From: an archaeon
GTDB taxonomy: Archaea > Asgardarchaeota > Hermodarchaeia > Hermodarchaeales > Hermodarchaeaceae
Reading direction: 5' to 3'
DNA: 14,907 bases
Assembly (NCBI GenBank): GCA_016550415.1
Contig: JABXGU010000313.1
Span: 1-14,907 of the forward strand
Within the stretch, counting starts at the first letter, position 1, and each line of letters opens with the position of its first letter. Positions 1 through 14,907 of this stretch are shown in pieces. The translations under genes were made by a program, and so were the position numbers. The notes beneath the pieces are model-generated. The model searched no databases. It had not been told where the DNA came from and saw only the letters and a program-made list of their open reading frames with translations.

Positions 1-677
1 CTATACACGCTATTACAGGGGGACTATTAGGTTCAACTGAAATCTCTATTGATGATGTATTAAGTGGAGCACGTGCATCTCTTCTGATTAAGATGCGCCG
101 TTATGAGAAATTCCTGAATAAGGGTAAAGAAGATTCTAAATTATTGAAGAAGGTTTTAGAAGATATTCGCCATATCATGACTGAGGTTCAAGGCCCCTTA
201 GAACGTATTTCTGATTATACAGCGGCAGAAATCCTTATTGAAGCAATGCCGCCCCCACCAGAATCCATTGATGAGGGATCAAAGTATGGTTTCATGCACC
301 CTGCTTTCCCTGCTCTTCCACGGGCAGGTCCACCATTGAAAACACCAATTGACTTCCTAGAAAGAGATGTGTGGCTTGCACTTATGCAAGAACCTACTGA
401 GCGAAGCGATTTTCTCCGAGAAAGAATAAGTGTTGTTATAGAAAGTATGCTTTCCCAAGGTACACCTTTGGAAAAGGTAGGTAGTACAATTATATTTGAT
501 ATAGATGCACGTTTACCTTGGAAACGCTCTAAGAAAACCGTGATTCACCGTGAACTCCAAGAATTACAGGAAACTGCAGGAGAAAATTACAGGGAACAAG
601 TGGGACATTATATCTTGGATAATATCCTCTCGAAAATACCTCAATTACGTTCCACTACTCATTCTTCGGAAGGATAG
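1..677 (+). CDS. Unrecognised protein, 5' end cut by window edge
   Basis: The frame is open from position 3 to a TAG at 675-677, giving 224 visible residues. An internal ATG at 93 could serve as a start, but no Shine-Dalgarno sequence precedes it and the 30 codons before it read like normal protein (for example STEISIDDVLSGARASL). A gene truncated by the window edge is therefore preferred. The visible part is soluble and mostly helical by composition. A Lys/Glu-rich charged stretch follows the ATG at 93, then a proline-rich segment (MPPPPES near residues 82-88), then a helical C-terminal half. No family motif, membrane segment or metal-binding cluster was recognised. The next gene begins 25 nt downstream on the same strand, so the two are probably co-transcribed. 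That the frame is coding is likely; the function is unknown. Confidence 0.75.
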   Translation, partial: IHAITGGLLGSTEISIDDVLSGARASLLIKMRRYEKFLNKGKEDSKLLKKVLEDIRHIMTEVQGPLERISDYTAAEILIEAMPPPPESIDEGSKYGFMHPAFPALPRAGPPLKTPIDFLERDVWLALMQEPTERSDFLRERISVVIESMLSQGTPLEKVGSTIIFDIDARLPWKRSKKTVIHRELQELQETAGENYREQVGHYILDNILSKIPQLRSTTHSSEG

Positions 678-702
678 ACTATACAATGGAGGTTCAATTT
701 GA

Positions 703-1476
703 GTGAGCAGACAAAACCCCCCATTGATTTGGGTATTGAATTTTCTTGCACCTGCCTTTCGATTATTTGGTCATGAACTAACAATTGTTGGTGATTTACT
801 AATTGCTTCACGGCAGCTTTGGAGCTTACTCTGTGAAGATACAGTGCGTTCAGCTTTAATTGGTCCCGGAATCGTAAAAGGACAAGTTAACATCAAGGGG
901 CATCCTGTTGATATTGAATTTCTGGTGGGTGCTACACTCTTTGACCCCACTGAAATGCGTCCAGGCGAACCAATCCCTCTGCTCGATATCCTAAATCCTG
1001 AAGTCGTAGACCCCCTTTCCAAATCATCACCTGAACAAGTGCAACAAATTATTCGTTCACTAATAGTGAAGAAAGGCTCTGTTTCAGACTCAGGACAAAT
1101 CCTAACAGTAAGCATTGAAGGTGCGCTTCCTCAAACCCTAATTGTCGAACAGCAAATGATTGGGAAAAATATTACATTTGTCTCAGGGATAAACAAGGCT
1201 AAATTTCTCCTTGGCGGACAAAAAAACCGACTATATACTCCCTTTAAAGAAGCACTACTCAAGAATCGATTTAGCAATCCAGAAAAAATCTGGAATTTCA
1301 GAGTTGACCGAAAGCAGTTTGATGCATACAATTCATCTGACTTCAAGGAATGGGTAATAATCGAAATGCAGACAGATTCCCGCCTAGATTCCTTTGACAC
1401 TCCAAAAGCAATGGATGAGGAGTATAACTCTGTTCTCAAATATTTGCTAGGCAACCGTGATTATTTCATCTTCTAG
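703..1476 (+). CDS. Unrecognised 257-residue protein
   Basis: The GTG start at 703 is supported by a strong Shine-Dalgarno sequence, TGGAGGT at 687-693, about 9 nt upstream. An in-frame TGA directly before the GTG excludes an earlier start. The product has a hydrophobic-leaning N-terminus (residues about 8-45) but no convincing transmembrane helix or signal peptide. A mixed alpha/beta middle follows, then a charged C-terminal half ending in YFIF. I recognise no family or catalytic motif. It follows the upstream unknown gene by 25 nt, so the pair may form an operon. Its last 11 nt overlap the 3' end of the convergent helicase gene. The overlap means the two transcripts are antisense at their ends; whether that matters is unknown. 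Confidence 0.8.
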   Translation: MSRQNPPLIWVLNFLAPAFRLFGHELTIVGDLLIASRQLWSLLCEDTVRSALIGPGIVKGQVNIKGHPVDIEFLVGATLFDPTEMRPGEPIPLLDILNPEVVDPLSKSSPEQVQQIIRSLIVKKGSVSDSGQILTVSIEGALPQTLIVEQQMIGKNITFVSGINKAKFLLGGQKNRLYTPFKEALLKNRFSNPEKIWNFRVDRKQFDAYNSSDFKEWVIIEMQTDSRLDSFDTPKAMDEEYNSVLKYLLGNRDYFIF

Positions 1477-4093
1477 AAGTTGAATCCGATTTTTGTGGGT
1501 GTTCAATCAAGGTAATTGCCTTACTTGCACTTTCTGCCAAGTCAAAGCGTTCCAACGTTTCTGCTACACGCTGGATGCCCTGCAGGATATGAACTTGATT
1601 ATCAAGAAAACCAAAAATATCGCCAGGGTAAATGAACAGTTCATACTTCTTTAGAAAAGCGGCATTGATTTTCGAAGGTGTTAAACCCTTAAAGCGCATT
1701 TCAAGAACAGCACGGGAGAGACTCCACTGACCGTGGTCACAGAATGGACTCTCCTTGCATCGGCAGTTGAAGAAGGTAAGTGTCCATTTACTAAACATCT
1801 GGAGCACCCAACGTGGAAGCTTCTTTAATCGACGAGTGCTACGAGTGCTCATCAGATCAAGGACTGCTCCTGCGAATAGACGGGTGGCAAATCGTGTACG
1901 AAATGCACGTTCAATTGCACTTTGGAGCTTAGGTGAGAGGTAGACATTTCTTAAAGGCTCAAGCATAACTGAAAGTTCTTCAGCAGTATTATTCGAATAT
2001 TCACGAATTGCGGCAACATTGGAGGCGGAAAAATATGAAATGGATGCGGCACGTCCTAATTCTGTTGATGTTAATTGTTCACCGGTTTGCTTTGCCAAAC
2101 CATGTTTCTTTAGAAAACGTATGCCTTCATTAAATGAGACTGTACGGGATATGAGGCTCTCGTAAGCCTGCTGTAACTGTTTATATGATATTGTGTCAAA
2201 GCAAGAAAGCGTTGCTAATATCTGGTCCACGGATTGTTCGAATGTTGCTTCTGGTCGAACATCTTCAATTGGATTGTTTAATACGTCCAAGGCGACTTCT
2301 TCTTCTGTTTTTGGCTCGTCACCAAAATATCTTCGATTTATCTCAGCAAGTAATATTGCCTTTCCAGTGTCATGTTTGCCCAGACGACCTGCACGACCAA
2401 GCATCTGAGTAAATTCACCGACGCTTAATATTTTGGTACCCATCATCAGGCTTTGGAAAATTACTGTGCTAGCTGGAAAGTCAACTCCTGCTGCAAGTGC
2501 TGCAGTTGTTACTACTGATGCGATTTCTCCTGCAGCGAATGCCTCCTCGATTCTATGACGTTGGACGTAGGTCATCCCCGCATGGTAGGGTCGTGCTGAA
2601 ATGCCTTGTTTTTGTAGTTCAGTGGCTATGGCATGAGTGCCGCGTCTTGAGTTAGTGAAAATGATTGTCTGTCCCCTGAAACCGAAGGAACTTCTTTGGT
2701 TAAATTCAGCTTTACAAATGTCAGCCATCATTCGAAGCTTATCCTCTTCAGTAAGTGTGAGGATTAAATGGCGTTGCAGCGGAACTGGACGTCCATGCAA
2801 GATTACTGGTTTCAATTCTAATTCCTGTGCCAATTCCTTAGGATTACCAACTGTTGCTGAAAGTGCCACAACCTGTGCCTTTGGAAAAAGTGTACGAAGC
2901 CGTGCCAGTAGACCATCAAGCTCCGCTCCTCTGTCCTCATCAGCAACCATCTGAATCTCATCAATAACCACCACACCAACATCTCTGATTTGATGCCATT
3001 GGCTACTTCGAAGTAGAAAATCAAAGCCCTCATAGCTAGCTACAATGATGTTAGCACCAGCAACATCATCATCTACAATTACAAGCGCCTCTTCACCTGC
3101 ATCGATGGAACTCATCCCAACCCGAATAGCAACACGTAATCCAAGAGCCTCATATTTGCTGACATACTCATGATATTTCTGATTTGCCAAGGCAACAAGG
3201 GGAGATAGGTAGATGTATGTTTTACCTTCCATCGCAGCTTTAATACCAGCTAGTTCACCAACAAGGGATTTACCACTTGTTGTATCTGAAACTACAAGAA
3301 TGTCTTTGCCTTCAAGTAACCCCCCTTCCAGAGCTAAAGTCTGAATGGGTAATAAAGACGAGATACCATTTTTTCTTAAGACGTCTCCAAACTTTTTGGG
3401 GATGTCAAGTGTGCTAATGGATATTGGCTCCGTACTGTCTTTGGTTGCTTGGACCTGATCATAAAGGGTTATGGCTGGGTTACGGCTGGGTCGAAATCTG
3501 GAAGATAAAAACCAAGCTACCTTATCCACTGATCGAAGCCGTTTCAGCATTGCTTCAAGGCTGTCATGAGCCTGCCTTGAAATCTTAATATCCATCGAAC
3601 GAAAGCGATTGGATAATTCACGTAACGCACATGGATAACATAATGCTTCTCCATCAGCTGTAAAAACATCACGTTTTCGAAGCATTGTCAATCGTCCATC
3701 TGCTGCACAATTTTTGCAGGAACGGACGATTATGGGATCTGCAACATTATAGTCCCGTAACATCCCTTTTAACTCGGTAAGAAAAGGGAGATGCGGTTGA
3801 CGGGGGATAGCAATGTATTCTGCATTTCGAATCCATTTGAAAAAGGAATGAGGATCTATTGGTTTCTCATGGTTTTTACTCAATATCCAAAGTTTTTCTG
3901 GTCGAAGTCGACCACGCACCATATGAAACCAAATACGAGCTCGGATTAATGGTAAATTAGGACGCTTTGGACGAAATACAATGCACCGTGCTGCAAGTTC
4001 TCTCCTTTTTTCTGAAAAAAGTGCAAGTGCAAATGGTGGTTTCAAAGGGCGCAAAGGTTCCACGACATCTAAAAGTTTATTCAAGGAGTTCAA
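1466..4093 (-). CDS. Ski2-like archaeal superfamily 2 helicase (ASH-Ski2/COG1202 type)
   Basis: An 875-residue ATP-dependent helicase. Motifs in order: a zinc-finger-like C126-x2-C129 ... C152-x2-C155 in a roughly 240-residue N-terminal region; Walker A SDTTSGKS (269-276); motif II DEIQ (378-381); motif III SAT (412-414); motif IV around IIFTNSRR (477-484); and motif VI QMLGRAGR (563-570). A winged-helix and helical region follows, with a late cysteine cluster at C777, C779, C785 and H787. The length and N-terminal zinc finger fit the archaea-specific ASH-Ski2 family, reported in Thermococcales to partner the RNase aRNase J in RNA metabolism, better than Hel308, which is shorter and lacks this finger. 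The TTG at 4093 is the only common start in the open frame, which extends to a stop at 4154-4156, and it has no Shine-Dalgarno sequence. A GATATTC TATA-like element on the minus strand (4120-4126) would place transcription near 4097, so a leaderless mRNA is possible. The gene is divergent from the JAMM gene. Confidence 0.9.
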   Translation of the reverse strand: MNSLNKLLDVVEPLRPLKPPFALALFSEKRRELAARCIVFRPKRPNLPLIRARIWFHMVRGRLRPEKLWILSKNHEKPIDPHSFFKWIRNAEYIAIPRQPHLPFLTELKGMLRDYNVADPIIVRSCKNCAADGRLTMLRKRDVFTADGEALCYPCALRELSNRFRSMDIKISRQAHDSLEAMLKRLRSVDKVAWFLSSRFRPSRNPAITLYDQVQATKDSTEPISISTLDIPKKFGDVLRKNGISSLLPIQTLALEGGLLEGKDILVVSDTTSGKSLVGELAGIKAAMEGKTYIYLSPLVALANQKYHEYVSKYEALGLRVAIRVGMSSIDAGEEALVIVDDDVAGANIIVASYEGFDFLLRSSQWHQIRDVGVVVIDEIQMVADEDRGAELDGLLARLRTLFPKAQVVALSATVGNPKELAQELELKPVILHGRPVPLQRHLILTLTEEDKLRMMADICKAEFNQRSSFGFRGQTIIFTNSRRGTHAIATELQKQGISARPYHAGMTYVQRHRIEEAFAAGEIASVVTTAALAAGVDFPASTVIFQSLMMGTKILSVGEFTQMLGRAGRLGKHDTGKAILLAEINRRYFGDEPKTEEEVALDVLNNPIEDVRPEATFEQSVDQILATLSCFDTISYKQLQQAYESLISRTVSFNEGIRFLKKHGLAKQTGEQLTSTELGRAASISYFSASNVAAIREYSNNTAEELSVMLEPLRNVYLSPKLQSAIERAFRTRFATRLFAGAVLDLMSTRSTRRLKKLPRWVLQMFSKWTLTFFNCRCKESPFCDHGQWSLSRAVLEMRFKGLTPSKINAAFLKKYELFIYPGDIFGFLDNQVHILQGIQRVAETLERFDLAESASKAITLIEHPQKSDSTSRR

Positions 4094-4142
4094 GCAAGGC
4101 TTTTTTAGTCTTCGCTTACGAATATCTTCCAGGATGATTTGA

Positions 4143-4835
4143 GTGCCAGAAGTTCAAATCTTTCCAGGTGTCTTGTCCCTCATTTTGACCCGTTCAGCTC
4201 GTGCAGGGAGAACAGAAATCGGTGGTTTTCTGATTGGCAGGGTACAAGGTCAAAAGCTATTTGTTACTAGAGCTACGTTTCCAAGACAGATAGGTACATC
4301 CACACATGTGGCGATTAACGATATTGATATGGCACTGCTCGCTGAAGACCTCATTGAACAGGGTACCGGGGAAGCTATCATTGGTTGGTGGCACACACAT
4401 CCCAGTTTAGGCGTCTTCATGTCAGGAACAGATATCACTACACAAGAACGGTATCAAGCTTTCTTTCCTCAAGCCATTGCATTAGTAGTAGATCCTGTGA
4501 AATTTTCAGAATCCCTTAATCTTCAGGATTTAGATCTTCACGTGTATCGCATCGTTGAAGGCAGGGCAAAGGATCTTGAGTTTGCTTATGTATTTGAACC
4601 AAGTGAGGTTATCCCTGATTTCTATGGTCTACTGCTCCAATTAGACATTCCTTCTCAGATTATCTTCGAAGATACATGGTTTGAACGTTTGCTTCGAAAT
4701 ACCCTTGGGGAACGGATAACAACACCCGAATTCACTCAGCATCTTGGGAATTTTCTTGAAGCTATTGTGGCTTTCAGTACAGTGGGCGTGTTAATGCTGA
4801 TAATTATCCTGTCACTTGTTGCGCTAGTAAGCTAA
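4143..4835 (+). CDS. Tail-anchored JAMM/MPN metalloprotease, Rpn11/CSN5-like
   Basis: A 230-residue MPN+ protein, predicted to be a zinc isopeptidase that removes ubiquitin-like modifiers. The full JAMM active site is present: general base E25 in TEIGGFLIGR, then zinc ligands H84 and H86, S94 and D97 in WHTHPSLGVFMSGTD, matching the H-x-H-x7-S-x2-D pattern exactly. The GTD-ITTQ context closely resembles eukaryotic Rpn11 and CSN5. The MPN fold covers about residues 3-150. After a linker, residues about 210-230 form a single hydrophobic helix ending at the C-terminus, so the catalytic domain should face the cytosol in a tail-anchored topology. The GTG start at 4143 has an in-frame TGA before it, and the MPN fold begins almost immediately, which supports this start. 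AGGATGATT upstream is only a weak Shine-Dalgarno match. The substrate is unknown, and no ubiquitin, E1 or E2 gene lies in the window. Confidence 0.9.
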   Translation: MPEVQIFPGVLSLILTRSARAGRTEIGGFLIGRVQGQKLFVTRATFPRQIGTSTHVAINDIDMALLAEDLIEQGTGEAIIGWWHTHPSLGVFMSGTDITTQERYQAFFPQAIALVVDPVKFSESLNLQDLDLHVYRIVEGRAKDLEFAYVFEPSEVIPDFYGLLLQLDIPSQIIFEDTWFERLLRNTLGERITTPEFTQHLGNFLEAIVAFSTVGVLMLIIILSLVALVS

Positions 4836-4869
4836 TTTTGAGGAGTACCTTTATTCTGGCTCCTCAAAA
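4836..4869. terminator. Hairpin between convergent JAMM and roadblock genes
   Basis: A perfect 10-bp inverted repeat, TTTTGAGGAG at 4836-4845 and CTCCTCAAAA at 4860-4869, encloses a 14-nt loop. It starts directly after the JAMM stop codon and its right arm is the last codons of the convergent roadblock gene. Placement between two converging genes suggests a bidirectional transcript-end structure or an RNA-stabilising hairpin. Archaeal termination normally depends on T-rich tracts rather than hairpins, so the terminator role is inferred. Confidence 0.45.
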
Positions 4870-5459
4870 CCTAAAGCTTTCAACGCAGCCAAAATAGCCT
4901 CTTTATCATCTACCGAAATATCTTCTTCATCAACAGAGGATTCAGCAGTACTGACAGCAACTGGTTCAGGGGCTTCCTCAATTCTAATTGTTGGTTCAGT
5001 TTTAGTGGGAGCTGAAACAGGCTCTGGTGGAGATGTGGGCATTCTACTAAGACCAATCAATTCCTCTGGGCGCAGAGAATATGTTTCCATAATCTTGGTG
5101 ACCTTTGTTATGTATATCTTCATCAATCCAATATAATAGCCCAACCGGATTTGATCCCGACTAGCACCAACTAATAATGTTTCAGGCGAAGCCCACATAA
5201 TAATAGTGAAGCCTTTACTCCCTCGTAAAATGACTTCAGTGAGTGTACCCTGGCTTAGCTGTCGGAGTGTTTCCTCACCAACATTAACAAGCGTTGCTGT
5301 TGCAGCAGAAAAAATGTCAGAGTCAACATTACCACTTACTGCACAAGCAAGACGGATACCTTCACGGGTAACAACGGCTAAGGCTTCAAGGCCAGTCGAC
5401 TCCTCTATTCGCCGCATCAATTCCTGTAAATCCTTAAATGGTGTATCTGCAAGTGTCAT
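4851..5459 (-). CDS. Roadblock/LC7 domain protein with acidic C-terminal extension
   Basis: A 202-residue protein. Residues about 5-125 match the roadblock/LC7 (MglB/longin-related) fold: an N-terminal helix (LQELMRRIEESTGLEALAVV), then a strand pair around REGIRLAC, and a later helix and strand through FTIIMWASPETLLVGAS. Such domains dimerise and in bacteria and eukaryotes regulate small GTPases; Asgard genomes carry many, but the partner here is unknown. Residues about 140-183 form a Pro/Glu-rich, probably disordered linker, followed by a short amphipathic helix, KEAILAALKALGFEE (186-200), which could be a docking motif. The ATG at 5459 is well supported by AGGTGAG (5469-5475) with 9-nt spacing and a TATA-like element 44-50 nt upstream. 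The gene is divergent from the Orc1-like gene and convergent with the JAMM gene. Confidence 0.88.
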   Translation of the reverse strand: MTLADTPFKDLQELMRRIEESTGLEALAVVTREGIRLACAVSGNVDSDIFSAATATLVNVGEETLRQLSQGTLTEVILRGSKGFTIIMWASPETLLVGASRDQIRLGYYIGLMKIYITKVTKIMETYSLRPEELIGLSRMPTSPPEPVSAPTKTEPTIRIEEAPEPVAVSTAESSVDEEDISVDDKEAILAALKALGFEEPE

Positions 5460-5502
5460 TTCGAAGGACTCACCTATTTGAGTAATTTGCTTTTTGTTTC
5501 AA

Positions 5503-5509
5503 CCTATAA
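5503..5509 (-). promoter_or_regulatory. TATA-like element for the roadblock gene
   Basis: On the minus strand this reads TTATAGG. Transcription starting about 26 nt downstream would begin near 5480, leaving a leader of about 20 nt that contains the AGGTGAG Shine-Dalgarno sequence. The spacing is coherent, but the box itself is not a strong consensus. Confidence 0.4.
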
Positions 5510-5575
5510 CAAAGTTTCCATCTTATTTTCTTTTCTTATCTAAAGTTTGAGCACTTCGAAAAAAAGTCTAAAGAA

Positions 5576-5624
5576 AATACTTTCGCTTTCCTCTCCCCTA
5601 TCCGCCTGTTCGCTTGAAAGTATT
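5576..5624. repeat. 9-bp inverted repeat upstream of the Orc1-like gene
   Basis: AATACTTTC (5576-5584) and GAAAGTATT (5616-5624) are exact reverse complements separated by 31 bp of pyrimidine-rich DNA. The right arm ends 4 bp before the TATA box at 5629. It could be a regulator-binding site or an Orc1/Cdc6 autoregulatory or origin element. It does not contain a recognisable origin recognition box. Confidence 0.5.
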
Positions 5625-5628
5625 GGAG

Positions 5629-5636
5629 TTTATATA
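5629..5636 (+). promoter_or_regulatory. TATA box of the Orc1-like gene
   Basis: TTTATATA is a near-consensus archaeal TATA box. Its centre is 23-24 nt before the ATG at 5656 and only about 12 nt before the GTG at 5644. Transcription would therefore start at about 5656-5660, making the GTG at 5644 an unlikely start and favouring a leaderless ATG at 5656 or a short-leader ATG at 5671. Confidence 0.6.
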
Positions 5637-5655
5637 GATTTGAGTGAAGGCAAAA

Positions 5656-6762
5656 ATGGAGCACCCGACTATGGTTTCCTGTGCTAAAGCCCTCTTCGAT
5701 CCTGAATATCTACCGACTAAATTGCTGCATCGTGATAAGGAACTTAATACTCTAGCCAGTTTCATTTCTCCCAATGATGAATCTTCGCCAGTTAATCTAA
5801 TGGTTCATGGAAGCTTTGGTGTTGGTCGTACTACCCTGCTTCGTTTCTTGGGTCATAACGAATTGGGTGCCTGGCGGCGGCCTTTCATCAACTTCCATAT
5901 GAAGAGTGACATAGAAATCGTCCATGACACATTAACAACTCTTACCGGTTCATCTGCTCCTTCTGCAACACTCCCTGAACTCTGGTCTCTATTGAAACGA
6001 ATACTCCGAAAAGCTGAAACACCACTCATTTTCACATTTGACGATATAGACCGTCACACAAATGATGCCTATACCAAGTACCTGTCTCTTTGTAAAAATC
6101 TTGGAATTCCCTCAATGGCAACTGCCCCTCGATACTTTCCTCGCCAACTTACCTCCTCTGCTGCTTCCTTCCTTGATTTAACACTAGAATTGGAACCCTT
6201 TTCAGACCATCAATTCCTTGACATCATCACCCAAAGAGTCAATGATGCCTTCCCTATACCGTTGCCTCCATCTATCACTGAATTCATTGCAGACATAATT
6301 TGTATACTAGATTTTCAACGACCCGCCACAGCAGTAGAGCTTCTCCGAAGTCTATACCCATTAACCACAGAAAATACAAATCTGACAACTGATCATATAC
6401 GTCAAGCTTGTCTTTCATCTAGGGCTCTTCACTATGATTTTTGGAGCGGTCACCTTGCTCATCTTACAAATCTGGAAGCAACAACAACACTCCTCATACA
6501 AGCTGTAGGAGAGTACTTCACTATCAACCCAGGTCAAATCTATGTAACCAAACCCCAGCTTTTGTTTCAATACAAACAGGTCTGCGAACGTACAGAAATT
6601 TCTCCAACCAATACTCAATTCTCGAGAGCGTTGAATGAGTTGCTCTTCCAAGATCTTCTTCTCCGCTCCCGGTACAACTCTGATAATTTCTTCACGCTCC
6701 TCCCTGCCCAAGGCTACTTCGAAATTGTAGAGTTGGTACTTGGTGATAAGGAAGAATGCTAG
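5656..6762 (+). CDS. Divergent Orc1/Cdc6-like AAA+ ATPase with altered Walker A
   Basis: Resembles archaeal Orc1/Cdc6 initiators: the N-terminal box YLPTKLLHRDKEL matches the typical P-x-x-L-x-HR-x-x-EL lead-in, followed by an AAA+ module and a C-terminal region sized for a winged helix. With residues numbered from the in-frame GTG at 5644, the P-loop is GSFGVGRTT (56-64): the normally invariant lysine is R62. Walker B is LIFTFDD (128-134), with D134 where the catalytic glutamate is expected. A sensor-2-like RPATAVELLRSLY segment remains. The changes suggest impaired ATP hydrolysis or a role as an ATP-independent DNA-binding paralogue rather than a standard initiator. The ATG at 5656 is chosen from the TATA position (368 residues); 5644 and 5671 are alternatives and all retain the fold. 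It converges with the DUF99 gene, 24 nt away. A STAND-like or other AAA+ family is a less likely alternative. Confidence 0.78.
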   Translation: MEHPTMVSCAKALFDPEYLPTKLLHRDKELNTLASFISPNDESSPVNLMVHGSFGVGRTTLLRFLGHNELGAWRRPFINFHMKSDIEIVHDTLTTLTGSSAPSATLPELWSLLKRILRKAETPLIFTFDDIDRHTNDAYTKYLSLCKNLGIPSMATAPRYFPRQLTSSAASFLDLTLELEPFSDHQFLDIITQRVNDAFPIPLPPSITEFIADIICILDFQRPATAVELLRSLYPLTTENTNLTTDHIRQACLSSRALHYDFWSGHLAHLTNLEATTTLLIQAVGEYFTINPGQIYVTKPQLLFQYKQVCERTEISPTNTQFSRALNELLFQDLLLRSRYNSDNFFTLLPAQGYFEIVELVLGDKEEC

Positions 6763-6786
6763 CCTGATCTAAACTGAATTTTATTG

Positions 6787-7398
6787 TTAATCACTCTGCG
6801 TCTTTGCCAATGTCCGTGCAAAAATCCTTGCCACTCGAATAGGTTCAGGTAGCCCTCCAAATCTTGTAAGACGTTCTAAAAGCGTCTTTACGACTCTCCA
6901 TTCAGCACCATGAAACTGCACAAACACATCATTATCTGTTGGCAATGTTAGTGGTTGCATTGGACCATTTCTACAAACTATATTCCACCGCGCTTCCCAC
7001 TCATCAGGAAAAGTTGCCAAAAGATGCTCACGGATATCTCCCTGCGTTTCTTTAGTCACACTGATAATAGGCAAACTCGATTTATCATGAAGCTGCTGAA
7101 GATCAATCATATTATACAAAGCAATAACGCTGCCATGCAGCATTATACAACCAATATCCTCTCGGCTAATCCGTTGGATCAAATCAAGTACAGCATCTGT
7201 TCCATCCATCCCTCCAATTGTAGCAGTTCCAAAAACCATTCCATCAATAATAAAATCAGCCCGCATTACCACGCCACCAAGAATAGTTGTCCTAGCATGT
7301 GGAGGTGCACTCTCAGCAACCCCAAAAACACGTACAGCAGCCTTCAATAAGCTAGCTTCAACACTCTTCAAGGTGGATGACCACCTAGAATCATACAA
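6787..7398 (-). CDS. DUF99 (UPF0215) family protein
   Basis: A 203-residue protein with the hallmark archaeal DUF99 blocks: LGGVVMRADFIIDG (40-53), IGGMDGTDAVLDLI (61-74) and IMLHGSVIALYNMIDLQQLH (85-104). The family is related in fold to endonuclease V, but its biochemical role is not established, so no nuclease function is claimed. The TTG at 7398 is the only usable in-frame start near the beginning of homology. The frame remains open upstream to 7440 but encodes a run of Phe/Leu from a pyrimidine tract, unlikely to be translated. No Shine-Dalgarno sequence is visible. It lies 39 nt downstream of the Tes-like gene in the same direction, but a T-rich tract between them suggests that transcription of the upstream gene may stop there. 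Confidence 0.85.
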   Translation of the reverse strand: MYDSRWSSTLKSVEASLLKAAVRVFGVAESAPPHARTTILGGVVMRADFIIDGMVFGTATIGGMDGTDAVLDLIQRISREDIGCIMLHGSVIALYNMIDLQQLHDKSSLPIISVTKETQGDIREHLLATFPDEWEARWNIVCRNGPMQPLTLPTDNDVFVQFHGAEWRVVKTLLERLTRFGGLPEPIRVARIFARTLAKTQSD

Positions 7399-7416
7399 AA
7401 CAAAAAGAAAAAGGAA
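7396..7416 (-). terminator. T-rich tract after the Tes-like gene
   Basis: On the minus strand, the stretch after the Tes-like stop codon is almost entirely pyrimidine with several T runs (complement of AAAACAAAAAGAAAAAGG). Such tracts terminate archaeal RNA polymerase. It overlaps the start of the DUF99 gene, so read-through or a separate promoter would be needed for DUF99. Confidence 0.4.
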
Positions 7417-7437
7417 GTGGATGAAGAGAAAAGCTAG

Positions 7438-8955
7438 CTAAGCTGGTGCATTAATCTTAGCACCAGGATGCTTAGCCTTCCACTCATCCAAACTAATCGC
7501 AAATTTCTTCTCAATTCTAGGTCGATGCAAGCTGTTGTACGCGCAGAATGGGACTATGCGTCCGTCTGGGATGGCATAGTGGATTGCGCATCGTTCGAGT
7601 CGTTCTAAATCTAAGTTGTATGGGTCTTGGAAGTGCATTGACCCAATCATAATGATGCGTTCCATGAATTTAGCTAGTGAATCGTAGTCTTTCTTTCGTA
7701 GGAAATTGTTGGCGAGATTGAATAGTAGTCCTTTCTTCTTGAAGAAGCGCATGGCACTGATGATGCCTCTCATGGTGCCTCGCCATCGTTTTCCTCTTTC
7801 ATAGTCCTTTGACATTTTTTCTAGTGAGCCAAGGAATCGTTCCACATCAACGTACTTTGTTATGGGTTGATAGGTTCCGTCTTCTTCTACGATGATGAAT
7901 GTTGCCATACCACAGGCTGGGTGTGTTGAAAACTCGACGGCTGGTGCACCACCACGAGCTCCTAGGGCACGTGCTAATGGTACAACGAAGGGAACAGGAT
8001 ACCAGTCACTCCGCTTTATGATGCCTTTGGTTTGTTCCTCTGTTAATCGCATTAAATCTGGGATAGTGATGCGCATTTCCTGTCGTTTATCATAATCGAT
8101 GCGGCCTGTGATGGACACTGGCTGAAAGTTCACACATCGGATGATGTCATGGTTCTCAACGGCGAACCGTATAATGTCGCCAACTTGGTCGTCGTTGATA
8201 CCTCCAACTAATGTTGGTACCAGGACAATGCTGCGTAATCCCTCTTCACGGCATCGCTGCAAAGCCTTCATCTTCTGAGACAAAAGATTTACTCCACGTG
8301 CAGCAAGGTACGGCTCCGGTGTCAAACCATCAAATTGCAAATAGACCGTACTTAGGCCGGCCTCAGCTAGCTTCTTTGGATATCCCTTCTGGGTAAGCAT
8401 CAACCCATTGCTGGCGATCTCAATGTGTGGGAATCCTGCCTCCTTTGCCGCCTTGATAATCTCAGGAAGTTCCTCTCGCATCGTGGGCTCTCCACCAGCA
8501 AACTGCACGGCAGGTGCTGGCACTGGCTTATTAGATCTAAGATTCGCTAACATTTCCTTTATCTCTTCAAGACTGGGCTCATAGACGTATCCTGCTTTAC
8601 CAGCATGAGCGAAACAGATGGGACATTGAAGATTGCAACGGTTGGTAACATCAATTAGGGCAAGGCAAGTGTGGGTTTTGTGGTTGGGGCAAAGACCGCA
8701 ATCATTGGGACAGCCATTAACCGTTTCAGTACGTGGATTATCAAGCCCTAAGCCCTTGTAAGCAAACTTCATGGCTCGATGAAAATCCTTCACGCTGGAC
8801 CAATATACATCCTTGTATTCGCCATGCTCTTTGCAGCTCTTGCGAATCATGAGCTTACCATCTTCTTCATAGATGGTTGCCTCCACGGTGCAGAGACACT
8901 CAGGGCATATGCTTTTTGTAGTGTATGGTAGTGTTTTTGGCGCCATTTTTTCCAT
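7438..8955 (-). CDS. tes: Radical SAM enzyme, tetraether lipid synthase (Tes)-like
   Basis: A 505-residue enzyme of the MJ0619/Tes family (COG1964), which couples the ends of archaeol phytanyl chains into biphytane to make tetraether (GDGT) lipids. Visible motifs: N-terminal CPECLC (17-22) with C41 and H44; [11 protein letters not shown] (82-92), another metal-binding group; the radical SAM cluster motif CNLQCPIC (107-114, C-x3-C-x2-C); AGGEPTMRE for SAM binding; and late cysteines in HPACG, RCAIHYA and VPFCAYN. The family is reported to hold three 4Fe-4S clusters plus a rubredoxin-like iron, in agreement with this many cysteines. The ATG at 8955 is preferred: AGGAG lies 10 nt upstream, the length then matches the family, and the frame upstream to 9096 encodes low-complexity sequence. 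Other COG1964 members with different substrates cannot be excluded. Confidence 0.88.
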
Positions 8956-8961
8956 TGAATT

Positions 8962-8977
8962 ACCACTCCTTAGTGGT
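8962..8977. repeat. Small inverted repeat over the Tes-like ribosome binding site
   Basis: ACCACT (8962-8967) and AGTGGT (8972-8977) are perfect complements around CCTT. On the minus strand the arms and loop read ACCACTAAGGAGTGGT, so the AAGGAG Shine-Dalgarno bases lie in the loop and right arm. In the mRNA it could fold over the ribosome binding site, or in DNA act as a small operator. The short arms make chance possible. Confidence 0.4.
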
Positions 8978-9084
8978 GGATTTGTATTAACTAGGCTTTT
9001 GCATTTATTTTCACTTAAAAGGGTTTTCCGATTTTTCAGAGTAGGAAAACGTAACCTTAAGAGGAAGAAATATTGAGGGAAAGA

Positions 9085-10044
9085 ATGGTGTGGCAAATGC
9101 GGATGAGGATAGGATTTCTTTTGACTCTATTATTCATTGTAACAATCTCATCTAGCTCAATATTAGGGTCAATCAGTCCTGTAGCCTCAATGGATATTCC
9201 GGACTGGCCAACGGAGAAGGTACGTATAATGTTCATTCACCATTCTTGTGGTGAGAACCTATGGTACACCTATGGACATCTTGCTGATGAATTAGCGACT
9301 ATCAATATTGAGCCCCATGATGCCACATATGGAGACGCGATTGGTGACGACACAGACGTATGTCATTGGTATCCAAAATTCAGGGATCAACTTAATGAGA
9401 TTCTGACCTTCAACCACTCATATGATGTCTATTATCCAATACCAAGTGGAGTGGTTAATGACATTATCATGTTCAAGTCATGCTATCCTGCATCAGATAT
9501 CTGGGGTTGGGGAACTGAACCAGGTGATCCTGAAGATTCTGATCAGACAATTGCCAATTACAAGGCAGCATATAATGAGCTTTTACCGATTTTTCAGGCA
9601 AATCCTGACACACTTTTCATTCCCGTGACAGCACCACCCCTAAACCGTAATGGTGGTTGGACGCCTGAGAACGGTGCGAATGCAAGTTATTTCAATAACT
9701 GGTTAGTCAATGACTGGGCTCCTGATGAGAAGAACATTGCAGTTTTTGATTGGTTTCATTTCCTTGCTAACCCACTAGATTTTGCTGCAAAAGATGATTA
9801 TGTTGACGATTCGGACAGTCACCCGAATCTTCAAGCATGTGAGGATACTACCACTGTCTTCATTGGTTGGATTGATGATGTGATTGCACGGTGGCAGACA
9901 GGGAACGGGTCAACGACGCTCCCCACGACATCTGAAACTCCCACGATTCCAGGTTTCCCGTTCGTAGCAATTGCATCTGGTGTAGCTTTAGCTTTAGGCG
10001 TAATTTTTGTGAAGCGTCGCAAAAACCCTCTCTTCAAAAAATAG
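9085..10044 (+). CDS. Secreted SGNH-hydrolase-like surface protein with PGF-type sorting tail
   Basis: About 319 residues. A signal peptide (basic start, then hydrophobic IGFLLTLLFIV and a small-residue stretch) is followed by an SGNH-like domain: block I IMFIHHSCGENLW with candidate nucleophile S58, a middle FIPVTAPPLNRNGG segment, and a late DDSDSHPN block with H250 (numbers from the in-frame TTG at 9073). The usual D-x-x-H spacing is not exact, since the acids sit at -2 and -4 from the histidine. The C-terminus has a Thr/Pro stalk, PGF at 293-295, one transmembrane helix and KRRK, the three-part layout of archaeosortase-processed anchors. An esterase or deacetylase acting on surface glycans is plausible, not proven. 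GAGGG lies 5 nt before the ATG at 9085; the TTG at 9073 has an equally good GAGG, so the start is uncertain. It is divergent from the Tes-like gene. Confidence 0.75.
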   Translation: MVWQMRMRIGFLLTLLFIVTISSSSILGSISPVASMDIPDWPTEKVRIMFIHHSCGENLWYTYGHLADELATINIEPHDATYGDAIGDDTDVCHWYPKFRDQLNEILTFNHSYDVYYPIPSGVVNDIIMFKSCYPASDIWGWGTEPGDPEDSDQTIANYKAAYNELLPIFQANPDTLFIPVTAPPLNRNGGWTPENGANASYFNNWLVNDWAPDEKNIAVFDWFHFLANPLDFAAKDDYVDDSDSHPNLQACEDTTTVFIGWIDDVIARWQTGNGSTTLPTTSETPTIPGFPFVAIASGVALALGVIFVKRRKNPLFKK

Positions 10045-10102
10045 GGTGATTGAAGGGCATAACCTGATGGTTTCGGTCAGGCAGGTGGGTAATGAAGAAG
10101 TG

Positions 10103-10110
10103 TTTATATT
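10103..10110 (+). promoter_or_regulatory. TATA box of the RHH gene
   Basis: TTTATATT, preceded by purine-rich GAAGAAG that could act as a BRE. The box centre is 27-28 nt before the ATG at 10134, so the mRNA would begin almost exactly at the start codon and be leaderless. Confidence 0.6.
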
Positions 10111-10133
10111 TTGTAAGCCACTATCAGTAGGGT

Positions 10134-10328
10134 ATGTCCCGGGTATTACGCTTATCACTTGTTTCGGTGAAATTACCGAAGGCATATGTAAAGGGTTTGG
10201 ATACACTTGTTGAGCGAGGAACCTATCCGACTCGGAGTGAAGCAATTCGTGTTGCGATTCGAGACCTGCTTAAAAAGGAACTTTGGATGTCAGGTTCACC
10301 TCTCACAATGCCCGCTTCATCTGAATGA
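10134..10328 (+). CDS. CopG/Arc-type ribbon-helix-helix transcription regulator
   Basis: A 64-residue protein with a textbook ribbon-helix-helix: beta strand LVSVKLP (9-15), helix A from about 16 to 29, then TYPTRSEAIRVAIRDLLKKE, whose S/T-R-S-E-A-I-R pattern marks the start of helix B. Such proteins dimerise and bind DNA through the paired strands. The N-terminal eight residues and the C-terminal tail (SGSPLTMPASSE) carry no recognised effector or metal domain, so it is not NikR-like. The ATG is fixed by the TATA spacing. It ends 3 nt before the convergent inositol-phosphate synthase gene and lies 89 nt downstream of the surface protein gene. The target is unknown; autoregulation or control of the neighbours is speculation. 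Confidence 0.88.
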   Translation: MSRVLRLSLVSVKLPKAYVKGLDTLVERGTYPTRSEAIRVAIRDLLKKELWMSGSPLTMPASSE

Positions 10329-10331
10329 TGT

Positions 10332-11423
10332 TTAGCGTTCAAGTTTTCCTTGAATAAACTCCTCCACCATTCGCCGAGCAGTACTATCTTCCACTTGCTT
10401 TGGCGGATGCTTGAAGCAGTATGAAGAGATGCTGAGGAGGGGTCCACTGATGCCCCGGTCAAGGGCTAATTTAGTTGCACGGACTACATCTACAACCACG
10501 CCAGCTGAGTTTGGTGAGTCTTCAACTTGAAGTTTTAAACTGACTTCGATTGGCATACCACCCCATTTGCGTCCGTGGGCATGGATATAGCATACCTTTG
10601 TATCTTTGAGGAAAGGAACGTAGTCGCTGGGTCCAATTCTTGTTGGTACGGGGTAGGAAAGGAGACTTGTCACCGCTTCAGTTTTGCTAATGCGTTTACT
10701 CTTTAGTCTATGCTCAGCCAGCATATTTTCAAAATCTGTATTCCCACCAATATTGAGCTGATAGGTTTCAGTGATGTCGACACCTCGATCCATGAGAAGT
10801 TGGGCAATGACTCTGTGCAGAATGGTAGCTCCGACTTGGGATTTGATGTCATCGCCAGCCATGGGTAAACCAGCTTTTCGGTATTTTTCCTGCCAACCGG
10901 CATCAGAGACGATGAATTCTGGAATGCAATTAATGAATCCGCATCCTGCATCTAAAGCTGCTTGTGCGTAATAGCGTGATCCTTTAGCACTGCCAACTGG
11001 GAGGAAATTGATGAGAATCTCAGCACCTGCTTTACGTAGCTTCTCTGCCACATCAACGGGCTTGATTTCTTTCGGGTCATAGCAGTCGAAGGATTTCTGC
11101 ATGTGTTCAGCAACACCATCCAAAATAGGTGCTGCCTGAACCTTTATCCCCAATCTGGGGGTCTCAGCGAATCTTATTACACAGTTTGGTGGTACAAAAA
11201 TTGCTTCGCTAATGTCTTTTCCGATTTTTTCCTTGTTGATATCAAAGGCAGCAACGAATTTGATGTCTTTTGGTAGATATCCTCCAAAATCGGGATGCAT
11301 CAATCCCGTTACTCGGTCTTCATTACCTGTAATGTTTTGGTAGTAATAAGTGCCTTGAACAAGGCTGGAAGCACAGTTGCCTAATCCTGCAATTGCTACT
11401 TTTATTGGACTCATATTATGCAC
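10332..11423 (-). CDS. ino1: myo-Inositol-1-phosphate synthase
   Basis: Converts glucose 6-phosphate to inositol 1-phosphate with NAD as a recycled cofactor (EC 5.5.1.4). In archaea this supplies the archaetidylinositol headgroup and, in some species, compatible solutes. The 363 residues fit the archaeal subfamily. Seen: the NAD-binding loop AGLGNCASSLVQG near the N-terminus, LINFLPVGSAKGSRYYAQAA, GDDIKSQVGATILHR, NIGGNTDFENM, and the lysine-rich LKSKRISKTEAV region that holds family active-site residues. The start is either the GTG at 11423 or the ATG at 11414; the family normally begins just before the NAD-binding strand, so the ATG three codons in is at least as likely. A minus-strand TATA-like box at 11452-11459 predicts transcription near 11429 and hence a very short leader. 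It is divergent from the membrane protein gene. Confidence 0.95.
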   Translation of the reverse strand: MHNMSPIKVAIAGLGNCASSLVQGTYYYQNITGNEDRVTGLMHPDFGGYLPKDIKFVAAFDINKEKIGKDISEAIFVPPNCVIRFAETPRLGIKVQAAPILDGVAEHMQKSFDCYDPKEIKPVDVAEKLRKAGAEILINFLPVGSAKGSRYYAQAALDAGCGFINCIPEFIVSDAGWQEKYRKAGLPMAGDDIKSQVGATILHRVIAQLLMDRGVDITETYQLNIGGNTDFENMLAEHRLKSKRISKTEAVTSLLSYPVPTRIGPSDYVPFLKDTKVCYIHAHGRKWGGMPIEVSLKLQVEDSPNSAGVVVDVVRATKLALDRGISGPLLSISSYCFKHPPKQVEDSTARRMVEEFIQGKLER

Positions 11424-11451
11424 GCTCAGCAGAGATAGTTTACCATCATAA

Positions 11452-11459
11452 AGTATATT
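11452..11459 (-). promoter_or_regulatory. TATA-like element for ino1
   Basis: Reads AATATACT on the minus strand. Its centre is about 33 nt before the GTG at 11423 and 42 nt before the ATG at 11414, consistent with a 5' leader of about 7-16 nt. A moderate consensus match. Confidence 0.45.
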
Positions 11460-11570
11460 GTGCGTTTAACTAGGGTGAACCATTTAAGCATTTCTCATAA
11501 TTACGACAGATAACCAACTGCTGCCAGTAAATTAAAAACCCCGTATTAAGGTGAACGCTAGCGAGAAGCC

Positions 11571-12704
11571 ATGTCATCCGCTGAGGTTCGAGCAAAGCTA
11601 TCAGCACTCTTCTTACCCATCATTATTGCAGTGGGGCTAACAGTATACTTCGTAGTCCTATTCAACCTTACTCTTCTTCCCGGAGTCCTTCCTATGGTCA
11701 TTCGCTCCTTCGCGATGCCTTTGATTTTCACATTTCCGTGGGTGCTTTTTTTCGCCATCTTCCGAGAACGCACAGTAAATGCATGGAACGCAATGAAAGT
11801 TAAAACCAGTATTATCCCTCTTCGCTGGAGAATGCTCTATGGTTTCAACACAATAATTGTAATCTCCTTCTTCATTCTGCCCTTCATTTCCCCACCTCTC
11901 GCTGTATTTGCAGCCCTTGTCCTTGCTTGGCGAATCGTCTACCATAGCGATTTCATTTGGCAGAAGGGTCCAACAACTCGTATCCTATACGGTGGACTGC
12001 TCTTCGCCATCATAGCTGCTCTGCCATGTTATCTTCTTATCATCTGGTTTCAATACTATCTTAGCTACATCGCCGCTGTTATTCTGGCAACTTGGATAGA
12101 ATGGTTCGATGTATTCTACTTTGTTTCGATCTGCATTGTCGACGCGCTAGCCATCGGGGCTCTTCTTCATCTATCATATGGCACCTTAGATCCAAAGGGA
12201 AATGTGCGAATGGAGAAAGGCACTATTATATGGACAATACGGAGTATTGAATTTATTTTTGCAGGTTTTCTTCTTCTCCTCGTTAGTCCCTATTGGACTC
12301 CCCTTGGTTTCGGAATTGGACATCTAGATCCATTAGGTCTCAATGTTGGTCTAATCACCTATATCAACTGGGCCTGTTTGGCCTTGATTTGTATGGTCTA
12401 TTTTGTGAAGATATGTGTCGGTATTCGAGGAGATACCAGCATCTCACTCTTAGGAGTTCTACTTGCAGCAGCCTTCCTCTTAGTGGAGCTTTTTCAAACA
12501 TTTAACATAGTCTTGAAGGGAGTGCTTGTTGTCAGCTCCAGCCTTTTCTTCGTCATTGGATTCTTGATTAGCTTCTTTACAAGTCCTGACGAGTTGGTAA
12601 CAAGGCTAGAGGATGAACCAGAGCCCGAAGAGGACTTAACTAGCGAGCAGCTTAGTCTAGAGGACGAAGCTGAATCCGAAGTTGAAGAAGTTGATTCCAG
12701 CTAG
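11571..12704 (+). CDS. Polytopic membrane protein with acidic cytosolic-type tail
   Basis: A 377-residue integral membrane protein of unrecognised family. Hydrophobic segments lie at about 12-37, 45-64, 91-107, 108-124, 138-160, 163-178, 181-203, 222-243, 261-284, 291-310 and 314-336, so roughly nine to eleven helices. Basic loops such as FRERTVNAWNAMKVK (64-78) would face the cytosol by the positive-inside rule. No transporter, rhodopsin or enzyme signature was recognised. Residues about 338-377 form a soluble, highly acidic tail (over a third Glu/Asp), probably disordered. The ATG at 11571 has no well-placed Shine-Dalgarno sequence: AAGGTGA at 11548-11554 is 16 nt away. An AT-rich TAAATTAA at about 11528-11535 could be a TATA box. 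It is convergent with the small unknown gene, 25 nt away. Confidence 0.85.
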   Translation: MSSAEVRAKLSALFLPIIIAVGLTVYFVVLFNLTLLPGVLPMVIRSFAMPLIFTFPWVLFFAIFRERTVNAWNAMKVKTSIIPLRWRMLYGFNTIIVISFFILPFISPPLAVFAALVLAWRIVYHSDFIWQKGPTTRILYGGLLFAIIAALPCYLLIIWFQYYLSYIAAVILATWIEWFDVFYFVSICIVDALAIGALLHLSYGTLDPKGNVRMEKGTIIWTIRSIEFIFAGFLLLLVSPYWTPLGFGIGHLDPLGLNVGLITYINWACLALICMVYFVKICVGIRGDTSISLLGVLLAAAFLLVELFQTFNIVLKGVLVVSSSLFFVIGFLISFFTSPDELVTRLEDEPEPEEDLTSEQLSLEDEAESEVEEVDSS

Positions 12705-12729
12705 TGTAAGTCCAATCTACTCAAGACTT

Positions 12730-13092
12730 CTAAATATTTCTTAGGAAAACTGGGCACTTATCTAGCGAGATAACCGGAATATAGGAATACTTCCTGTCAT
12801 AGGTTCCATCTGTGTAGTCCCATTCTTCGGTAGGATCTGATAGGTACTTTATGAATGGTCCTTTGGGGCCTTCATTTTGCTCGATATAAAGAAAGAGTGG
12901 CAAACCTTCGAGCTTGTAATAGCCTGGTAGGGCAGTTAGTGTACCTATTATGTGTCTTTTATCCTGTTTGAAATGAAGGATTGTCGCAGTCCGTTCCCGC
13001 GTCCAAAAAATAACCATTCTGATGAGGTTGTCAAGGTTCTTTAATTTTAAGAGTACAGCGGGAGCAATTAATTCTTCATCCACAATTATCAA
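12730..13092 (-). CDS. Small unrecognised protein
   Basis: A 120-residue protein starting at TTG (13092), the only common start in its short open frame. The ATG at 13096 is out of frame. The sequence is balanced and looks like a folded alpha/beta protein: an N-terminal IIVDEELIAPAVLL segment, a strand-rich TATILHF ... RHIIGTLTALPG ... LPLFLYIE centre, then a Tyr/Asp-rich segment (EWDYTDGTYDRKYSYIP). No signal peptide, membrane helix or metal site is seen and no family is recognised. The lack of competing frames and the amino-acid balance support coding. No Shine-Dalgarno sequence is visible, so the mRNA may be leaderless. It is divergent from the nitrilase gene. Confidence 0.72.
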   Translation of the reverse strand: MIIVDEELIAPAVLLKLKNLDNLIRMVIFWTRERTATILHFKQDKRHIIGTLTALPGYYKLEGLPLFLYIEQNEGPKGPFIKYLSDPTEEWDYTDGTYDRKYSYIPVISLDKCPVFLRNI

Positions 13093-13187
13093 CCATTTTT
13101 CAATAAGTCAATGCTAAGAAAAAGTCTTTGCTTGGTGGAATTTGGTGGCTAGCATTTTTGAGGAAGCAAATATAGTTGTTTATTACT

Positions 13188-13976
13188 ATGCAGTTGAGAG
13201 TTGCCTGTGCACAGATGGATGTTATTTTTGGAGATAAGGACGCAAATATGGGCGCAGTAGTACAAATGGCTAATATGGCAGCTGATAAGCAAGCTGATCT
13301 TCTGGTATTGCCAGAACTCTTCACCACTGGGTTTTGTTTGAATCAGGCAAATCTACTAGCTGAAAAACCCCTTGGTCACTCGGTACAACTTCTTCGGGAT
13401 TTAGCCAGTCGATTCCGGCTGCTCCTTGTTGGAGGGAGTATTCTAGAGCGTCGGGGGGATAAAATCTACAATACCTGCCCAATTATTGGAAAAGACGGTA
13501 AGCTTCTTGGGACCTATGATAAGATTCATTTATTTCCACCATTTGTAGAAGACAAGTATCTAACACCAGGGGGTAAATTAAACACAATTAAAACAAGTTA
13601 TGGGCAGTTTGGTGTGATGATTTGCTTTGATATACGATTTCCTGAGACTGCCCGTTCACTTGCTCTTCAAGGTGCACAAGTAATTTTTTGCCCTGCAGAA
13701 TTCCCGGCAGAGCGAATCAATGTTTGGGCCACACTATTGCGGGCTCGAGCTATCGAAAACCAAGTATTTGTAGTTGGCTGCAATCGTGTTGGAAGTGATG
13801 GAAAAAACATCTTTGGCGGACGGAGTGCTATCATAGATCCTGAAGGGAAAACCCTAGCTCAGGCTGATGACAGTGCACAGTTAATTGATGCAGTAATCGA
13901 CCTTGACGGGATAGCAGCGGTAAGAGAGCAGCTACCTTTTACGAAATATCGACGCAAGGATTTGTATAAAAGTTGA
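13188..13976 (+). CDS. Nitrilase-superfamily amidohydrolase (omega-amidase-like)
   Basis: A 262-residue carbon-nitrogen hydrolase. The Glu-Lys-Cys triad is intact: E43 in LPELFTTGF, K112 in YDKIHLF and C146 in ICFDIRFPE. The family hydrolyses amide C-N bonds through a thioester on the cysteine. The compact length without extra domains, and the DIRFPE context, resemble Nit2/omega-amidase and related small cytosolic amidases, but the substrate cannot be read from sequence. The N-terminus MQLRVACAQMD is typical when starting at the ATG at 13188. An upstream in-frame TTG at 13176 adds four residues and has GAGGA at 13160-13164 at a good distance, so it is a genuine alternative. No partner gene is adjacent. 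It is followed 82 nt later by the DUF47 gene on the same strand with its own TATA box. Confidence 0.92.
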   Translation: MQLRVACAQMDVIFGDKDANMGAVVQMANMAADKQADLLVLPELFTTGFCLNQANLLAEKPLGHSVQLLRDLASRFRLLLVGGSILERRGDKIYNTCPIIGKDGKLLGTYDKIHLFPPFVEDKYLTPGGKLNTIKTSYGQFGVMICFDIRFPETARSLALQGAQVIFCPAEFPAERINVWATLLRARAIENQVFVVGCNRVGSDGKNIFGGRSAIIDPEGKTLAQADDSAQLIDAVIDLDGIAAVREQLPFTKYRRKDLYKS

Positions 13977-14026
13977 ATTTGTGAAACTTCACCAAACCTT
14001 TAAACAGTATTCACATTTAGGTTTCT

Positions 14027-14034
14027 TAATATAA
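14027..14034 (+). promoter_or_regulatory. TATA box of the DUF47 gene
   Basis: TAATATAA within an AT-rich stretch. Its centre is about 28 nt before the GTG at 14059, so transcription should begin within a few bases of the start codon (leaderless or nearly so). A 6-bp inverted repeat, AAACCT/AGGTTT (13994-13999 and 14019-14024), lies just upstream and could be an operator or the end of the nitrilase transcript. Confidence 0.55.
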
Positions 14035-14058
14035 AATCTTAAAATCGGTGTTCAAAGA

Positions 14059-14715: not shown

Positions 14716-14749
14716 TAGCTGTGTAAATCTTCAAATCTTAAGTGATAAT

Positions 14750-14907
14750 TCAATCCTTTTGGACAAGTTCATCTTTTCGCTTCAAGTACTTGGTCCGAAG
14801 TCGCTCGTAGGTGCTATCATCTACAAGCCCCGCTCTTCGTTTTTCCTCAAGTCTAGCTATAAGCTCTGCTGTGGCTAGCAGCTCTGATGCTGCTTCCTCC
14901 TCAGTCA
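14750..14907 (-). CDS. C-terminal fragment of an unknown protein, cut by window edge
   Basis: On the minus strand the frame is open from the window edge to a TGA at 14750-14752, giving 51 residues. The composition is highly charged and helical: TEEEAASELLATAEL, then IARLEEKRRAGLVDDSTYERL and a basic KYLKRKDELVQKD end. The pattern of a helix, a turn with G-L-V-D-x-x-x-Y and a second helix is common at the ends of archaeal and bacterial proteins (SHOCT-like or coiled-coil hairpins). The rest of the gene lies outside, so no function can be assigned. Confidence 0.65.
   Translation of the reverse strand, partial: TEEEAASELLATAELIARLEEKRRAGLVDDSTYERLRTKYLKRKDELVQKD

Follow-up and report, generated by a model that had tools for sequence, protein, structure and literature searches.

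The window analysed here, a 14,907-nucleotide stretch (positions 1 to 14,907) of contig JABXGU010000313.1 from an archaeon of the Hermodarchaeaceae (Asgardarchaeota), carries a gene that we call TA-JAMM, encoding a predicted tail-anchored, Rpn11-like JAMM protease (Table 1). The product contains the JAMM/MPN+ motif (E ... HxHx(7)Sx(2)D), represented by E25, H84, H86, S94 and D97. In an alignment of the window protein with 50 close relatives (alignment A1), H84, H86, S94 and D97 do not vary, and more than 90% of rows have E25; three rows are 169-residue pieces without the E25 region; the active site given as complete in the initial annotation is therefore present, at the residues named, and near-invariant. 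The protein matches the Pfam family JAB (PF01398) with 50.2 bits (cut-off, 22.5) at E = 2.8e-13, and likewise Prok-JAB (PF14464). A sequence search of the PDB returned CsRpn11 of Caldiarchaeum subterraneum as the best match (8.6e-29), followed by human PSMD14 (2.5e-14) and CSN5 (1e-12), with AMSH/Sst2 (approximately 1e-10) and BRCC36 (1e-4) as weaker relatives. Residues 3–144 align to CsRpn11 with one single-residue gap, core identity in the structural matches is 33–39%, and both the AlphaFold2 model and the structural matches (CsRpn11 again the best) indicate an MPN fold. The NCBIfam desampylase model (desamp_Halo) gave 16.5 bits (cut-off, 130) and the Cap3 model 18.9 bits (cut-off, 200), and the defence Cap2 fusion model was also far below its cut-off. 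Given this ranking and these low scores, the earlier placement of the active-site surroundings beside eukaryotic Rpn11 and CSN5 was right, with archaeal CsRpn11 nearer still.

The C terminus is strongly hydrophobic. On the Kyte–Doolittle scale, the best 19-residue window of the protein is 208–226 (mean, 2.83; next best elsewhere, 1.08), and the last 24 residues (207–230) are free of D, E, K, R, N, Q and H. AlphaFold2 draws residues 194–229 as a single 36-residue helix past the MPN fold, the hydrophobic part being 207–230, which bears out the hydrophobic helix proposed earlier at about residues 210–230 and shows it, in the model, as a separate element. Hydropathy thus predicts a single transmembrane segment, located in roughly the last 30 residues, as in tail-anchored proteins. 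The hydropathy and the predicted helix together suggest that the tail is inserted in a membrane, with the MPN domain in the cytosol.

Table 1 Features of TA-JAMM and neighbouring genes in the window
Feature	Position	Strand	Remarks
TA-JAMM, predicted tail-anchored Rpn11-like JAMM protease	4143..4835	+	230 residues; GTG start; stop included
MPN/JAMM catalytic domain, approximately residues 3–150	4149..4592	+	CsRpn11 alignment, AlphaFold2 model, structural matches
Catalytic Glu25	4215..4217	+	Counterpart of CsRpn11 Glu24 (PMC6043591, excerpts)
H84-T-H86 ... S94-x-x-D97, metal-binding and catalytic motif	4392..4433	+	Sequence, alignment, PMC6043591 (excerpts)
Predicted C-terminal transmembrane tail anchor, residues 207–230	4761..4832	+	Hydropathy; modelled helix 194–229
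ORF1 (open reading frame 1)	3..677	+	C-terminal part only, frame open at left edge; 402 residues in L001; family unassigned
ORF2	703..1476	+	257 residues; family unassigned; same-strand upstream neighbour of TA-JAMM
Hel308-like DEAD helicase with DUF5814	1466..4093	-	Antisense between ORF2 and TA-JAMM; Hermodarchaeum-like clade
Tetraether lipid synthase Tes	7438-9096		648 bits (cut-off, 450)
377-residue protein	11571-12704		Polytopic membrane protein with acidic tail, by eye; no Pfam or NCBIfam family

Among known systems, CsRpn11 (PDB 6FJU, 6FJV, 6FNN and 6FNO) is the closest: both proteins have an MPN+ core with the catalytic residues in register, an Ins-1 of similar length, no Ins-2 and a helix after the core. 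These CsRpn11 traits are taken from PMC6043591. Both the ubiquitin precursor and ubiquitin conjugates are substrates of CsRpn11, whose catalysis does not depend critically on the C-terminal helices (PMC6043591, PMC5654768). It is described as a soluble protein, crystallised, assayed and monomeric in solution, whose gene lies beside its ubiquitin operon, whereas TA-JAMM ends in a hydrophobic tail and its gene lies apart from the ubiquitin cluster in two related genomes (G066 and G069). Eukaryotic Rpn11/PSMD14 of the 26S lid and CSN5 share the MPN+ domain and the catalytic set, but TA-JAMM differs from Rpn11 proper, which is marked by Ins-2, an N-terminal extension and lid-anchoring C-terminal helices: it shows no insertion relative to CsRpn11 (hence no Ins-2), starts at the MPN domain without an N-terminal extension and has a predicted membrane tail. 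AMSH, AMSH-LP and Sst2, which also share the MPN+ domain, act at endosomal membranes with the endosomal sorting complexes required for transport (ESCRT), and AMSH is recruited there through other domains and partners. The Ins-2 of AMSH reads linkage (PMC6043591); in contrast, TA-JAMM (230 residues, MPN from residue 3) has neither Ins-2 nor an N-terminal recruiting domain, and ends hydrophobic. JAMM-1 desampylases are archaeal JAMM metalloproteases as well, but TA-JAMM scores far below the cut-off of that family; SAMP-specific JAMMs are described as lacking the flanking helices H4/H5 (PMC6043591). We also count EMC8/EMC9 of the endoplasmic reticulum membrane complex (EMC) among the closest known systems.

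Tailed JAMM proteins in Asgard genomes

Genome searches covered the GTDB phylum of Candidatus Hermodarchaeum yapensis (G001, the genome of locus L001), taken as the Asgard phylum; loci were chosen for reading by match strength, and genomes with strong matches that were left unread include G010, G014, G019, G020, G023, G025 and G030. By profile search, JAMMs occur in at least 169 of 227 genomes among the matches listed. The tail is not peculiar to this contig. The window protein and all 50 close relatives in A1 are tailed (three being the 169-residue pieces), with the tail ending 0–5 residues from the C terminus, and 56 of the 124 distinct JAMM cores from the fetched loci, representing 54 genomes, carry one. 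Across these 56 proteins the HxHP...SxxD motif and the upstream Glu are always retained, the linkers between MPN domain and tail, roughly 38 to 113 residues long, are unalignable, and the uncharged tail stretch spans 19–27 residues (median, 24); 44 of them end with the tail itself. The tail is more than a chance feature: a lone hydrophobic C-terminal segment was seen in 4 of 321 other ORFs (150–450 residues, 38 loci) versus 35 of 38 JAMM genes. The 38 loci are nearest matches, and most were picked with their tails already in view; only the former count is therefore unbiased, and the latter is not a sample. All four of these other tailed ORFs belong to one family, DUF362 ferredoxin-like proteins encoded upstream of the JAMM gene in G057, G058, G059 and G062 (L111 3439–4647, with corresponding positions in G057, G059 and G062); G058 also has a Ras-family GTPase gene, one position further upstream.

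A wider search, in which 19 diverse tailed proteins supplied the seed profile and 7,995 candidates were scored, yielded 92 proteins at E ≤ 1e-8, 70 of them tailed. Source names among the 70 include Heimdallarchaeaceae, Heimdallarchaeota and Kariarchaeaceae, and the tail was checked by eye in P0106, P0123, P0146 and P0164. The 22 untailed proteins comprise one from Caldarchaeales (P0176), four of similar size (P0171, P0172, P0174 and P0175) and a remainder that is short or belongs to other JAMM classes. The expectation that Asgard orthologues keep the C-terminal helix was thus upheld for 50 of 50 close relatives and for 70 of 92 in the tail-seeded search, but not for all Asgard archaea. We rejected a pan-Asgard tailed JAMM: none appeared in the 30 JAMM places read, of 54 (the weakest 24 being unread), in 12 E2-bearing genomes (G044, G049, G052, G086, G099, G101, G110, G114, G122, G131, G145 and G152), and G075, G082 and G083 hold untailed JAMMs from the same part of the tree as tailed ones.

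Other JAMM classes in the fetched loci—those near genes for ubiquitin or the ubiquitin-conjugating enzyme (E2), those with a long C-terminal extension and short ones—had no tail. The long-extension class, in which the protein continues well beyond the MPN domain, is represented by the Asgard loci L143–L146, L149, L150 and L154. Separately, P0171, P0172, P0174, P0175, P0179 and P0181, four of which are of CsRpn11 size, have a precomputed match to PF03665, which we take to be the EMC8/EMC9 family; these proteins may bear on the origin of EMC subunits.

A quick tree was built from 117 rows, after removal of 10 far cores and addition of CsRpn11, PSMD14 and the window protein. On it the tail label requires 6 changes, against a mean of 39 in shuffles, with starred branches forcing 2; 7 changes are needed once two very long rows are removed. 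Holding together all tailed proteins and the untailed L021, L022 and L089 was not rejected (approximately unbiased (AU) test, p-AU 0.506; log-likelihood 0.74 higher), although this group was named after the tree had been seen and the AU test does not establish a clade. The pattern fits a single origin of the tail followed by a few losses. CsRpn11 and PSMD14 cluster with untailed JAMMs of G076–G079 (support 95, at a point where long branches meet). In each of G077, G078 and G079, one JAMM without a tail is encoded no more than 1.6 kb from ubiquitin and E2, and a tailed one lies on a different contig; because both occur in each genome, the two forms are paralogues. The tree gave no support to a descent of eukaryotic Rpn11 from tailed JAMMs: PSMD14, itself on a long branch, was placed beside CsRpn11 among JAMMs that lack the tail.

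Ubiquitin-system genes and gene neighbourhood

No ubiquitin, ubiquitin-activating enzyme (E1) or E2 family was found among the scanned window proteins. The eight genomes nearest the window (G001 and G065–G071) all encode ubiquitin, E2 and an E1-like ThiF protein, in agreement with what would be expected for a deubiquitinase-like enzyme; ThiF alone is unspecific, being present in 11 of 14 control genomes. In each of the eight, the A1 profile (E 1e-5) matches the tailed JAMM alone among the matches listed. More broadly, of the 163 genomes listed with E2 at least 158 have a JAMM of some class, as do at least 11 of the remaining 64, up to 5 of which were unsearched for E2; 52 of the 54 genomes with tailed JAMMs are listed with E2; the others are G173, which has none, and G160, which has ubiquitin and was perhaps unsearched for E2. 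Filtering 20 ubiquitin loci for ORFs that end 0–12 residues past Gly-Gly left one ORF in each of 19 loci, and 18 of the 19 ORFs end exactly at Gly-Gly, including all 6 from the nearest clade (2 of its 8 genomes were not in the set). Maturation would thus be unneeded there and deconjugation the likely task.

Asgard ubiquitin and ESCRT genes are often clustered, and two-hybrid data link ESCRT parts (PMC9192718, excerpts). A single locus of this kind in the Hermodarchaeum-like clade (L103, G069:C176, 257–9156) encodes ubiquitin, E2, Snf7, Vps4, ESCRT-II, EAP30, Vps28, Vps23 (E2 fold) and a ThiF protein whose end weakly resembles ubiquitin. Snf7 was found in seven of the eight near genomes, with two matches in H. 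yapensis (G001). The G069 locus and the G001 Snf7 matches differ from a preprint that, in its excerpted text, assigns Hermodarchaeia none of the ESCRT families (PMC11188069). In G066 a RING-like Cys/His protein, recognized by eye, adjoins ubiquitin, and its G069 counterpart has no Pfam match. We had expected the JAMM gene inside the ubiquitin cluster, which is not the case in G066 and G069.

The gene order of the window is kept in H. yapensis (L001): ORF1, ORF2, helicase, JAMM, Roadblock, Cdc6-like AAA, endonuclease dU and Tes. This shared order places the source archaeon near Hermodarchaeum among the Asgard lineages. The few named close relatives of TA-JAMM are labelled Thorarchaeota or Promethearchaeota. 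In 12 of the 38 genomes compared, ORF1 and ORF2 (391–427 and 255–269 residues in other genomes) share the strand of the JAMM gene and lie upstream of it, with 1–197 bp between ORF2 and JAMM in 6 of the 12. Family searches with ORF1 and ORF2 gave no known family, and ORF2 had no fold match; the pair is the best lead to partners of TA-JAMM.

Each of the eight near genomes encodes at least two further JAMMs. A second type (open frame of 145–188 residues) is present in all eight; in H. yapensis this short JAMM (L003 1270–1833, G001:C30) lies beside a gene read by eye as proteasome alpha. A third type (207–227 residues; L122–L125, G001:C41, G066:C45, G068:C135 and G071:C176) is found near a ThiF gene, again in all eight, and the two possibly form a separate modifier system.

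Proposed function and alternatives

We consider it likely, although well short of certain, that TA-JAMM is a tail-anchored membrane isopeptidase of the Rpn11/CsRpn11 type that takes ubiquitin off proteins at or in the membrane. The data behind this proposal are the motif, the predicted fold, the hydrophobic tail, their conservation and the co-occurrence with ubiquitin enzymes. We infer the chemistry strongly and the location with good grounds; the pathway is a guess. The zinc-dependent MPN+ domain would face the cytoplasm and, by analogy with CsRpn11, bind the Gly-Gly tail of ubiquitin in a groove bounded by Ins-1, cutting the isopeptide bond to the substrate lysine. The C-terminal helix, joined by a lineage-specific linker, would sit in the cytoplasmic membrane or an internal one with almost nothing on the far side, and would keep the enzyme close to membrane proteins that carry ubiquitin or to a sorting complex bound to the membrane. 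Ubiquitin would be the substrate and membrane proteins the probable targets, with removal at or in the membrane before ESCRT sorting or degradation, a link that is weakly indicated. The membrane-fixed, deubiquitinase-like enzyme put forward in the initial annotation accordingly gains support from the retained tail and the separate modelled helix, its membrane site, substrate and targets staying at the strength of prediction.

Several observations weigh against this proposal. Membrane insertion is predicted from hydropathy and a modelled helix; 5 of the 56 tails have a charged residue within their best 19-mer, and the weakest tail (L030) has a mean of 2.01. Untailed JAMMs (L021, L022 and L089) sit inside the tailed part of the tree, and the 12 E2-bearing genomes listed above gave no tailed JAMM at the places read. 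The position of the gene outside the Ub-E2-E1 cluster in G066 and G069, and the lack of a known family for its neighbours ORF1 and ORF2, count on the same side.

Three other explanations were weighed. A membrane-anchored JAMM acting on a different modifier (SAMP, a Urm1-like or another Gly-Gly protein) would account for the Prok-JAB match and for the further ThiF proteins in the same genomes, and SAMPs are indeed cleaved by other JAMMs (PMC6043591, excerpts). We judge this unlikely in view of the low desampylase score, the ubiquitin-cleaving activity of the nearest solved relatives, the distribution of JAMMs between genomes with and without E2 (at most 5 of the latter being unsearched) and the presence of at least two other JAMM types beside TA-JAMM. 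A second, distinctly less probable explanation is that the tail is a buried helix joining the enzyme to a soluble partner complex, much as eukaryotic Rpn11 assembles through its C-terminal helices (PMC6043591, excerpts); the same-strand set with ORF1 and ORF2 would supply candidate partners. Against such packing, the tail is an uncharged stretch of 19–27 residues at the extreme C terminus, its sequence is unconserved between lineages, the linker lengths are very different, and it is present in 23 of 26 genomes in which ORF1/ORF2 were not seen near the JAMM gene, some of these on short contigs. That TA-JAMM is an ordinary CsRpn11 orthologue with the tail as a minor decoration without functional meaning, as its core identity and the activity of CsRpn11 without its C-terminal helices (PMC6043591, excerpts) might suggest, is very improbable given the tail in 54 genomes, the paralogous pairs in G077, G078 and G079 and the grouping of CsRpn11 with untailed JAMMs (on long branches).

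For the membrane isopeptidase proposed here, the MPN fold and the probable chemistry are already known, and it is the tail-anchored form that seems new. No tail-anchored Rpn11-type JAMM was found in the literature searched; the excerpted preprint PMC11188069 names MPN deubiquitinating proteins in the legend of an ESCRT-neighbourhood figure, with no membrane segment mentioned in that text. It is conceivable, but in our view doubtful, that tailed JAMMs are the membrane deubiquitinases of a pre-eukaryotic Asgard ubiquitin–ESCRT sorting route, including that of Heimdallarchaeia, whose job later became that of recruited, AMSH-like enzymes. The proposed role would show that the JAMM family split into soluble and membrane forms within archaea. 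Substrates trapped on TA-JAMM would reveal which membrane proteins carry ubiquitin in Asgard cells, and a probable membrane ubiquitin-cleaving enzyme kept in several Asgard lineages, including those named Heimdallarchaeaceae and Kariarchaeaceae, would offer a handle on membrane ubiquitination.
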